From IMG/VR virus record IMGVR_UViG_3300043313_000671, positions 1 through 28,995 of that record: DNA of 28,995 bases, one strand, 5' to 3'. Positions 5,290-8,690 of the stretch are shown here, piece by piece. The stretch is from a virus. Under the pieces are notes generated by a model, which was not told where the DNA came from, ran no database searches, and worked only from the letters and a program-made list of their open reading frames with translations. Position 1 is the first letter of the stretch; each line of letters opens with the position of its first letter. The translations under genes and the position numbers were made by a program.

Positions 5290-5649
5290 CGGCCAGGCGC
5301 TCGAGCCAGGCCCGATCGAGCGGGCACCGATCATTCAGAAAAGGACGCGCGAAGCTGAACGAAAACGCGCGCGCCATGGGGGCGCCCGCCGGCGAGGGGG
5401 GGAGGGAGCGCGCGGGCGCAATCAAACGCCGCAACCCCCAAGCCTCTCAGCGACAAGTTTTTTTTGCCTTTGATTTTCAAAAAAATGACCGTTTGATTTC
5501 CATAATCAAAAGCGCGATGGTGGCAACGGTCGGGCGTCGTTTTGCCCCTTATCCCCCCTGGATGTAGCCAGCGGCGGCGCCCGGCTATCTCGAGCGATCG
5601 CAGGCCGTTTGCGGCCGATCGGCGCCAGGTGCGAAGGGATCAAAGGACA
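5263..5649. other. Non-coding gap before small terminase, candidate cos/pac and promoter region
   Basis: No convincing gene lies in these 387 bases. The left half is very GC-rich with runs of G and C. The middle (5456-5515) is an AT-rich island with a run of eight T (5458-5465) and a dyad TTTGATT / AATCAAA. The position between an HNH nuclease and the small terminase is where cos or pac sites usually lie. A CATAAT hexamer (5501-5506) resembles a -10 box but has no good -35. Nothing in the sequence alone proves a cleavage site. Confidence 0.4.
5492..5510. promoter_or_regulatory. AT-rich dyad, possible operator
   Basis: TTTGATT (5492-5498) and AATCAAA (5504-5510) form a perfect inverted repeat around TCCAT. 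A related half-site, TTTGATTTTC, lies at 5469-5478. This is the most AT-rich spot between the HNH and terminase genes, so a repressor or integration-host-factor-type site is plausible. Confidence 0.4.
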
Positions 5650-6093
5650 ATGGCCCGAGGTGGGCGCCGACCTGGCGCAGGACGAAAGGCCGGATCGAAA
5701 ACCCGGCCGCAAATCGAAATAGACAAGGAACGCGCGTTCAAGGCGGTTAAGCGCGCGGCGCGCGATGCCAAGCGCGAGGCCGATCAGGACGCGGCCGCCG
5801 CGGCCGAGCGCGAGCGCCAGGCGCGCCGCGAAAGCCGATCCGAAAAACTGACGGTGCAGATTCTGCCGCCGATCGATATGCCCGAAATGTCAGAGGGCGC
5901 CGAGCCGCTGGATTTTCTCAAAGCGCTAATGCGCGACAACCGCTTGCCCGTCGGGTTTCGCCGCGACTGCGCGGCGATCGCGCTGCCCTATGTGCACCCG
6001 AAACCGATCCTGGGCCTAAAGGACGCGCGCCGCCTGGCCGCGTTCGATGACGACGACGACGACGAAATTGCGGCCGTGATGCGCGGGCAATGA
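5650..6093 (+). CDS. Probable terminase small subunit
   Basis: A 147-residue protein starting at ATG 5650 (AGGGA at 5635-5639). It begins with a GGRRPGAGRKAGS-type sequence, a hallmark of the N-terminus of many phage small terminases, continues with a long basic and alanine-rich helical stretch (about residues 25-75) and ends with a run of Asp. The small subunit recognises the packaging site and recruits the large subunit. Its place one gene before the large terminase supports the call. No helix-turn-helix is evident. The stop overlaps the methylase start (ATGA). In-frame sequence back to 5542 is open but lies in the non-coding gap and has no better start. Confidence 0.75.
   Translation: MARGGRRPGAGRKAGSKTRPQIEIDKERAFKAVKRAARDAKREADQDAAAAAERERQARRESRSEKLTVQILPPIDMPEMSEGAEPLDFLKALMRDNRLPVGFRRDCAAIALPYVHPKPILGLKDARRLAAFDDDDDDEIAAVMRGQ
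6081..6093 (+). repeat. 13-base direct repeat, left copy, flanking the methylase
   Basis: GCGCGGGCAATGA at the end of the small-terminase gene is repeated exactly at 7019-7031, the end of the methylase gene. Both genes therefore end in the residues RGQ. The second copy lies just before the large terminase. Confidence 0.7.
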
Positions 6094-7031
6094 ACGATGA
6101 CGTGGATTTACCTGCCTTCAACGTGCTGTCGCTTTGCGCAGGCGTCGGCGCGCTCGATATCGGAATCTCGATTGCCGAGCCGCGCGCTCGAACAATCGCT
6201 TACGTGGAGAGGGAAGCATATGCCGCGGCCGTTTTGGCTGCGCGCATGGAAACGCAAGACCTGGATGACGCGCCTATTTGGTCTGACGTTGCCAGTTTCG
6301 ACGCTCGAGCGTGGCGCGGCCTGGTGGATTGCGTCGTTAGCGGCGATCCGTGCCAACCAAATAGCACGGCCGGAAAGCGGCGCGGCGCCGATGACGAGCG
6401 CTGGCTGGCCGGGCATGTCGTGCGCATTTTCGACGAAAGCGGGGCTAATCGTTTATTCCGCGAGAACGTCGCGGGGAATCTTGCGGGACAACTCGAATTT
6501 TTCATTTCGGCATTGGAGCGGCTGGGCTGCCGCGTTGCGTGCGGAATATTCAGCGCGGCCGAAGTCGGCGGCGCGCACCGACGGGAACGGCTGTTCATTA
6601 TGGCCGACCGCAGCGGCGGCGGATTGCACGGGGTCGACGGGCGGCGGGCAATTTTCCAGCCTGCGAACCGAAACAAGCCGATGGCCGACGGCGACGGCTG
6701 GCGATGCCAAGGCGGCGGGCAACCGCAACCTGCCTGGTTCAACGGCAAATCAGGGAACGAGTCTGACGGATGCCGCGGTGCGGCGCCCGCTCCCTTATTC
6801 GCCCCTGGCCCAAATGACTCCCGCTGGCCCGAATTCATCGCGGCCGCGCCTGGCCTTGAACCCGCGCTTTGTCGAATGGCTGATGGGATGGCCGATCGGC
6901 TGGACCGATTGCGCGCGTGCGGCAACGGAGTCGTGCCATTGGCGGCGGCGCGCGCGTGGATTGCTCTTAACGATTTGCTGGCCGACGGCGCCCGATCAGG
7001 GGGAATTGCCGCTATGACGCGCGGGCAATGA
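6090..7031 (+). CDS. C5-cytosine DNA methyltransferase
   Basis: A 313-residue enzyme that transfers a methyl group from S-adenosylmethionine to cytosine C5 in DNA. Motif I is LSLCAGVGALDIG (13-25), motif IV has the catalytic Cys88 in GDPCQP, motif VI is FRENVAG (123-129), motif VIII is AHRRERLF (162-169) and motif X is GNGVVP (278-283). The target-recognition part between VIII and X is short. The target sequence cannot be read from the protein. It sits between the two terminase subunits, so it may protect packaged DNA from host restriction or mark it. A second frame (+1), open from 6097 to 7017, also encodes methylase-like sequence over the 3' half. A 13-base repeat flanks the gene, consistent with late insertion. 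Confidence 0.92.
   Translation: MNDDVDLPAFNVLSLCAGVGALDIGISIAEPRARTIAYVEREAYAAAVLAARMETQDLDDAPIWSDVASFDARAWRGLVDCVVSGDPCQPNSTAGKRRGADDERWLAGHVVRIFDESGANRLFRENVAGNLAGQLEFFISALERLGCRVACGIFSAAEVGGAHRRERLFIMADRSGGGLHGVDGRRAIFQPANRNKPMADGDGWRCQGGGQPQPAWFNGKSGNESDGCRGAAPAPLFAPGPNDSRWPEFIAAAPGLEPALCRMADGMADRLDRLRACGNGVVPLAAARAWIALNDLLADGARSGGIAAMTRGQ
7019..7031 (+). repeat. 13-base direct repeat, right copy, flanking the methylase
   Basis: Exact copy of 6081-6093 at the end of the methylase gene, seven bases before the large-terminase start. Confidence 0.7.
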
Positions 7032-7037
7032 TAGCCG

Positions 7038-8690
7038 ATGGATCCTGCCCCCTGGTCGGCCGCGGTGCCCGATTGGCCGGCGCGGCTGGCGGCCGGTCAA
7101 TCGATGTTGCCCCCCTGCCCGTGGATCGAGGGCCAGGCCGCGAAAGCGCTGGCGTTTTTCGGCGCGCTGCAGCTGCCCGACGTGCCCGGCACGCCGCGGC
7201 TGCGCGATGCGGCTGGACCCTGGCAAACCGACCTGGTGCGCGCGCTGTTTGGCAGCTGGGATCCGGCGCTGGGAAAACGGCACCTGCGCGAATTCGGCGT
7301 GATGGTGCCGAAAAAGAATTCGAAAACGACGACCGGCGCCGCGGTGATGCTGACGGCGCTGATGATGTCGCCGCGGCCGCGCGCCGAATTTCTGATCGTC
7401 GCGCCGACGCAGGAAATTTCCGACGTTTCGTTTGCGCAGGCCGTCGGGATGGTCGAGCTTTCCCCGTACCTGTCGCGCCGCTGCCATGTGCAGGCCGGGC
7501 ACAAAAAAATAATCGATCGGCGTTCGGGCAGTTTTCTCAAGGTGAAATCGTTTTCTCCCGACGTGCTGACGGGATCCAAACCCGCCGGCACGCTGCTGGA
7601 CGAAATCCATGTGATCGCGGATCGGCCGAACGCGGATCGCGTGCTGGGCCAGCTGCGCGGCGGGATGCTGTCGCAACCCGAGGCGTTTTTGCTGGTGATC
7701 ACGACACAATCCGAACGCCCCCCGTCGGGCGTTTTCCTGGCCGAGCTGCGCAAGTGGCGCGCGGTGCGCGACGGCAAGCTGGCCGCGGCAATCCTGCCGC
7801 TGCTGTTCGAAATGCCGCCCGGGATCGATTGGCGCGACCCGGCAACCTGGGCGATGGTCAATCCGAACAATGGCTATTCGATGGAGGTCGACCGGCTGGC
7901 CGAAGAATTCGCGATCGCGGACGCTGGCGGGATCGAGGAATTGCGGCGCTGGGCCAGCCAACACTTAAACGTGGAAGTCGGTTTGGCGCTGCTAACCGAT
8001 TCCTGGGCGGGCGCCGAATATTGGGAAGCGGCCGAGGATCAAACGCTAACGCTCGAAATGATCCTGGATCTATCCGACGTGATCGAAATCGGAATCGATG
8101 GCGGCGGCCTGGACGATATGTTGGGCCTGGCGGTGCTGGGCCGCGAACGCGCGACGGGCGAATGGCTGCTGTGGACGCACGCTTGGCTGCACCCGATCGC
8201 GCTGCAGCGGCACAAGCAAATGGCGGCCAGGTTCAAGGATTTTGCCGACGACGGCGATTTAACGATTGTCGAGGAAATCGGCCAGGACGTCGCGCAGGTG
8301 GCGGATATCTGCGCGCAGGTGGACCGCAGCGGCAAGCTGGACCGGATCGGCGTCGACCAAGTGGGGATTTCGAACGTGCTGGACGCGCTCGCCGCGATCG
8401 GGATCGATGGGGATCGCGTGATCGGGATCCCGCAGGGCTGGCGGCTGTCGGGCGCGATCAAGACAACCGAACGGCGGCTGGCCGAGGGCGCGTTGCACCA
8501 TGGCGGGCAACGCCTGATGGCCTGGTGCTGTGGAAACGCCAAAGTCGAGCCGCGCGGCAATGCCGTGACGATCACGAAACAGTTTTCGGGATTCTGCAAA
8601 ATCGATCCGCTGGTGGCGGTTTTCGATGCCGCGGCGCTGCTGGGGATGAATCCGCAACCGCGGCTGGATGTGAGGGACTGGATTGCATGA
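7038..8690 (+). CDS. Terminase large subunit (HK97-type)
   Basis: A 550-residue packaging motor. The ATPase part has a deviant Walker A, VPKKNSKT (90-97), typical of the HK97/Terminase_1 group, the motif VAPTQE (121-126) and Walker B TLLDEIH (185-191). The nuclease part shows IGIDGGGLDDMLGLAVL with an active-site Asp around residue 354, GVDQVG and a C-terminal FDAAALLGMN with another Asp. It cuts concatemeric DNA and drives it into the prohead through the portal. Length is usual for the family. The start ATG 7038 follows the methylase stop by six bases. A 550-codon stretch in another frame is also open, but its arginine/glycine-rich product looks like a compositional shadow. Confidence 0.95.
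   Translation: MDPAPWSAAVPDWPARLAAGQSMLPPCPWIEGQAAKALAFFGALQLPDVPGTPRLRDAAGPWQTDLVRALFGSWDPALGKRHLREFGVMVPKKNSKTTTGAAVMLTALMMSPRPRAEFLIVAPTQEISDVSFAQAVGMVELSPYLSRRCHVQAGHKKIIDRRSGSFLKVKSFSPDVLTGSKPAGTLLDEIHVIADRPNADRVLGQLRGGMLSQPEAFLLVITTQSERPPSGVFLAELRKWRAVRDGKLAAAILPLLFEMPPGIDWRDPATWAMVNPNNGYSMEVDRLAEEFAIADAGGIEELRRWASQHLNVEVGLALLTDSWAGAEYWEAAEDQTLTLEMILDLSDVIEIGIDGGGLDDMLGLAVLGRERATGEWLLWTHAWLHPIALQRHKQMAARFKDFADDGDLTIVEEIGQDVAQVADICAQVDRSGKLDRIGVDQVGISNVLDALAAIGIDGDRVIGIPQGWRLSGAIKTTERRLAEGALHHGGQRLMAWCCGNAKVEPRGNAVTITKQFSGFCKIDPLVAVFDAAALLGMNPQPRLDVRDWIA

Follow-up and report, generated by a model that had tools for sequence, protein, structure and literature searches.

The window, comprising the whole of a 28,995-base virus record, carries a methyltransferase locus composed of two open reading frames on the plus strand (the strand of all features given below). 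The first, designated alpha (6090-7031; 313 aa), contains the C5-cytosine methyltransferase core motifs I-VIII, a low-constraint linker, a conserved PGPxDxxxW segment and motif X. The second, designated beta (6097-7017; 306 aa), is nested inside alpha in frame +1 and consists of the start MTWIYLP, an echo of the core, recognition-type modules and motif IX. A preliminary description of the sequence had reported both frames, and they were found as described there, with the motif positions right to within one codon (e.g. WPTATAGDAKAAGNR, given as starting at 6679, lies at 6682-6726). The beta ATG is located 7 nt downstream of the alpha ATG, which overlaps the stop codon of an upstream ORF (5542-6093). 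Alpha is followed on its 3' side by a large terminase ORF (7038-8690), and no restriction gene was found among the neighbours examined. In blastn comparisons with annotated phages, DNA similarity could be recognised nowhere in the gene except along a 74-nt stretch (6846-6919) spanning motifs IX and X, which is also the place where the alpha and beta frames hand over.

The alpha translation matched Pfam family PF00145 (2e-20) and phrog_363 (2e-43), while its motif X also touched phrog_1008 weakly. Motif I (LSLCAGVGALD, 6126-6158) was placed using the relatives' alignment A1. Motif IV with the catalytic cysteine (SGDPCQPNSTAGKRRG, 6339-6386) and motif VI (ENV, 6456-6476) contain residues that are invariant in alignment A3, namely PCQ in the former and E125, N126 and V127 in the latter. 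Motif VIII (GGAHRRERLFIMA) is located at 6567-6605, and the conserved segment APGPNDSRW...LEPAL (6801-6855; consensus FPPxPxDxxxW in alignment A3) precedes motif X (LRACGNGVVP, 6909-6938). In the AF2 model of alpha, the core was predicted with pLDDT >90, the linker (residues 177-230) fell below 40 and appears disordered, and the motif X helix reached about 94; values below 50 were obtained at residues 260-271 (ADGMADRLDRL). A Foldseek search with this model retrieved M.HaeIII (1dct, E 4e-13). With PCQ in motif IV, ENV in motif VI and a class-I fold, alpha has the characteristics of a C5-cytosine methyltransferase.

The start peptide of beta (MTWIYLP, 6097-6117) belongs to a start motif, M[TAS]WLY[LIV]P, that is kept in 73 of 114 loci. 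A hundred or more weakly constrained codons precede the conserved part of beta, which includes two WPTP-type modules (WPTAAAAD... and WPTATAGDAKAAGNR...SLTDAAV; 6601-6780, with SLTDAAV at 6760-6780). These were assigned as a putative target-recognition region on the basis of the beta-type periodicity found between motifs VIII and IX across 48 pairs of relatives (see below). The relatives carry from one to six WPTP modules per beta, and this array suggests modular, possibly multispecific recognition. Alike modules were seen in distant hosts, for example in a Bacillota locus (L153) and a viral contig (L004). On clustering, the modules chained into one big group instead of separating into discrete types, and the exchange of recognition modules among hosts is therefore no more than suggested by these sequences.

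In family searches, the beta translation matched phrog_1008 (2e-20), phrog_27243 (2e-13) and phrog_26627 (5e-7), and a phrog_1008 match was present in all 57 aligned beta relatives. Searched separately, each of the two frames therefore has homologues (PF00145 and phrog_363 for alpha, phrog_1008 for beta), and the earlier impression that both read as methylase-like is borne out by the motifs and family matches in each. Comparison of beta with Pfam models and PDB sequences gave no relevant match. The AF2 model of the isolated beta C-terminus was weak (pLDDT 66, pTM 0.25), and a fold search with it found no match; a poor model might be expected if the subunit requires its partner. A clamp-binding QLxLF motif considered at the beta C-terminus was dropped, being present in just 2 of 114 loci.

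Motif IX (LNPRFVEWLMGWPIGWTD, 6856-6909) was found only in the +1 ORF, which has a constraint of its own and would constitute a separate polypeptide. Its canonical counterpart in a single-frame C5 methyltransferase is LTTRMTARIQGFPDDW, although the profile match of beta to canonical motif IX was not significant by itself. The position rates of this segment against the window were.346/.038/.092. In the alpha frame, the same DNA reads ADGMADRLDRL (6879-6911). The preliminary description took LMGxPxGW and ADGxxxRxDR both for C-terminal signatures. They are not equivalent: the first is canonical motif IX, constrained in +1, and the second is its out-of-frame echo, because the alpha third positions are frozen there (.099/.019/.009 for alpha codon positions 1/2/3 at LMGWP) and the model has pLDDT <50 at the corresponding residues. 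The genuine signature of the main frame is motif X.

The frame under selection was identified from substitution rates per alpha codon position (1/2/3) in 48 independent pairs, alpha position 1 being equivalent to beta position 3. The rates were.093/.060/.243 in motifs I-VI,.094/.062/.205 just before motif VIII,.237/.085/.090 between VIII and IX,.161/.071/.083 in the IX block, and.115/.072/.259 from motif X onward. The fastest-changing base thus moves from alpha position 3 in the core to position 1 between VIII and IX and back to position 3 at motif X. Since alpha position 1 is beta position 3, it is the beta frame that is constrained between VIII and IX. The switches are sharp, to beta about 20 codons past motif VIII and back to alpha about 5 codons past LMG. 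A beta-type periodicity is also present ahead of motif I, in agreement with the conserved beta start peptide.

A comparison centred on the window, using 13 relatives that are not independent of one another, gave a beta-type pattern at 6090-6125 and 6856-6900 and an alpha-type pattern at 6126-6605 and 6901-7028. The interval 6800-6855 was also alpha-type against the relatives (.264/.233/.467, position 3 fastest). The module region of the window aligns too poorly for periodicity, and its assignment to beta was taken from the relatives (the 48 pairs). In the core region, the amino acids of beta are little constrained. Along the DNA the constrained frame thus alternates, with little simultaneous constraint; this is neither a choice between two endings of a single protein nor the truly dual-coding stretch proposed earlier, but one frame or the other being constrained by turns. 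The +1 translation does have real homologues, and these conserve its residues rather than changing freely, so that the outcome named in the preliminary description as refuting its proposal was not observed. The family-wide constraint argues for placing the VIII-IX recognition region in beta.

Retention of both frames was examined in 40 divergent representatives, with alpha-preserving or beta-preserving synonymous shuffles as the expectation. Beta was open across the whole core (motifs I-VIII) in 24 of the 40, compared to 2.9 expected, and in its last 60 codons in all 40 (16.2 expected). Alpha was open between VIII and IX in 37, where beta-preserving shuffles gave an expectation of 4.7; of the three representatives in which it was closed, two (L150 and L177) carry motif X in the beta frame. 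Third-frame controls were open in 1-2 of the 40, and the pattern persists in relatives of 43-50% GC. For the window itself, a shuffle of alpha-frame synonymous codons that preserves the alpha protein and its codon usage left the 306-codon +1 frame open in 0.45% of 20,000 trials (P 0.004).

Relatives were collected by tblastn with the beta part of the window (68 phage records) and with beta of coliphage K1H (223 records). The first beta search depended on DNA encoding LMG and was biased in this respect, so loci were resampled by the alpha catalytic core alone, and alignment of this core yielded an unbiased sample of 160 loci. In 105 of these, IX lies in +1 and X in the frame of alpha. A further 24 had IX in +1 and a motif X unmatched by the pattern, and most of the remaining loci either have, as judged by eye, a variant IX (LMNFP, LMRWP, LMGWD, QMGWP) in +1, as in about 16, or lie on contigs that end early. 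Overall, IX is in +1 in nearly all of the sample, and X is in the frame of the core in most. In 12 annotated loci of phages and plasmids, motif X shares the frame of the core, and an IX-like block, LNPxxxxWLMGxPxxW, is in +1 (a variant in Stenotrophomonas S72 reads LNPCFGDWVMGWVTGW). Purifying selection on the +1 frame was detected in about 150 loci, distributed over Pseudomonadota, Bacillota, Bacteroidota, Planctomycetota, Chloroflexota and others.

Other partitions were also observed. In two Streptomyces loci (L161 and L175), motifs IX and X are in the alpha frame, with PTPRASDG modules in +1. In L150 (Bacillota) and L177 (Parafrankia), the recognition region, IX and X are all in +1 and the core frame is closed. 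These sequences suggest that domains have shifted from one frame to the other during evolution. Two further loci, L169 (after about 4350, in the +1 frame) and L162, have HNH endonuclease-like sequence between IX and X in +1, with alpha open; they resemble out-of-frame HNH insertions reported in phage methylases (PMC11855218).

Taken together, the motif distribution, the alternating constraint and the retention of both frames point to a single C5-cytosine DNA methyltransferase encoded as two overlapping polypeptides, a reading to which we assign a probability of about 0.88. Alpha would form the large catalytic domain, which binds SAM and holds motifs I-VIII, and would add motif X through a C-terminal helix located beyond a disordered linker. 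Beta would provide motif IX and, in the WPTP modules, the putative target recognition. From the starts 7 nt apart, and the overlap between the alpha ATG and the upstream stop codon, both subunits are probably produced from one mRNA by coupled initiation. They would be expected to assemble to a single active methyltransferase acting on phage DNA, probably with an anti-restriction role; this expression, assembly and activity, like the specificity, we infer from the computed features. One set of loci counts against the simple two-polypeptide model: in L198, L029, L077, L088 and L049, stops interrupt the alpha frame between VIII and X, while beta is unbroken and motif X can still be read in the frame of alpha; the model does not account for these breaks.

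Among the other explanations, one that we consider improbable is a single polypeptide produced by programmed frameshifting: ribosomes would move to +1 once past motif VIII, translate the recognition region and IX there, and return before X. The order of constraint (alpha, +1, alpha) does follow the canonical order of motifs, and L150 and L177, with the core followed by all later elements in +1, would fit such a scheme. However, frameshifting gives no reason for beta to be open before VIII or for alpha to be open between VIII and X, and both are kept (z 15.5 and 18, respectively), which argues for two nested polypeptides. Moreover, beta owns a conserved start peptide, the five alternating blocks of the window lineage (alpha, beta, alpha, beta, alpha) would need four shifts, and reading of the junctions revealed no fixed junction sequence.

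A much less probable explanation is that the gene is the fossil of an ancient frameshift, i.e. once single-frame, and now making an alpha protein, inactive or altered, in which the recognition region is scrambled. Single-frame C5 methyltransferases do exist (e.g. L261), and the other partitions of IX and X described above (L150, L161, L175, L177) indicate that frames have moved. Such a fossil is at odds with the +1 purifying selection in about 150 loci of many phyla, and the relaxed constraint in both frames between VIII and IX was looked for and not seen. The ancient frameshift altering the protein end, offered in the preliminary description, is unneeded, since both frames are still kept open. 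Finally, it is barely conceivable that alpha alone is made and that the +1 ORF arises from GC-rich codon usage together with the conserved residues of alpha: at 64% GC, long +1 ORFs are frequent, and the core region of beta is little constrained, but between VIII and IX it is the alpha frame that is free to change and the beta frame that is not, the same holds in 43-50% GC relatives, and LMG[WF]PxGW appeared in the +1 frame in 0.1% of alpha-synonymous shuffles.

The frame-alternating arrangement could be the one that prevails in this large methyltransferase family of phages and prophages, with beta as an exchangeable array of one to six recognition modules, read in +1 where alpha has its disordered linker. 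New DNA specificities could then evolve within a second gene and leave the catalytic protein untouched, leading to multispecific enzymes. We offer this extension tentatively, and hold it somewhat more likely to be wrong than right.

Public annotation of these loci is uneven. Both ORFs are annotated in phage K1H (as 'C-specific methylase' and 'Mte8-like protein') and in phage Genki (as two 'DNA cytosine methyltransferase' entries). At four loci (L093, L095, L099, L262) only the beta frame is annotated and the overlapping catalytic ORF was missed. Proteins of phrog_1008, or 'Mte8-like' proteins (e.g. ORF28 of phage K1H), are the same as beta and are annotated as 'DNA methyltransferase' or hypothetical, not as an out-of-frame second subunit. 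No paper on nested phage methyltransferases was found in the literature searched; relative to that literature, the new elements are the breadth over phages and many phyla, the one to six WPTP modules per beta, and the widespread mis-annotation. What were two-subunit exceptions (M.EcoHK31I and M.AquI) appears to be a class common in phages and prophages of many bacterial phyla, hidden by annotation that chose one frame or the other. The locus is also an unusually clean and testable pair of genes overlapping on the same strand, along which selection can be seen to change frame, and it carries a warning: a conserved 'motif' of the ADGxxxRxDR type can be the echo of a protein in another frame.

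Among known enzymes, the small subunit of M.EcoHK31I is reportedly encoded in an alternate frame within the large-subunit gene, both subunits being required; the window is similar in the nesting, with the beta ORF lying in another frame inside alpha. The conventional enzymes M.HaeIII and M.HhaI, as well as L261, share the core fold and motifs I-VIII and X with alpha, but have all motifs in one frame. In L261, a methyltransferase adjoining the NgoMIV endonuclease, RLTTRMTARIQGFPDDW...QIGNAFPP is read in a single frame, and there is no long +1 ORF. In M.AquI, the break is in the variable region and the small subunit carries IX as well as X (PMC3404938). The window locus resembles M.AquI in being a probable split enzyme and differs from it in having motif X on alpha, where it is constrained; L150 and L177 have the M.AquI-like partition. 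The larger subunit of M.EcoHK31I (YGGCCR) comprises motifs I-VIII and X and the predicted recognition domain, and the smaller one motif IX only (Slaska-Kiss et al. 2012, PMC3404938). Compared by this published motif partition, the window is alike, with I-VIII and X on alpha and IX on beta. The two would differ in the recognition domain, which was predicted on the large subunit of M.EcoHK31I, while across the present family the VIII-IX recognition region is constrained in beta. They also differ in that M.EcoHK31I is a bacterial restriction-modification enzyme, whereas the present gene belongs to a phage, and its examined neighbours include no restriction gene. Judged by its sequence, the window locus is probably a phage member of the known M.EcoHK31I kind.
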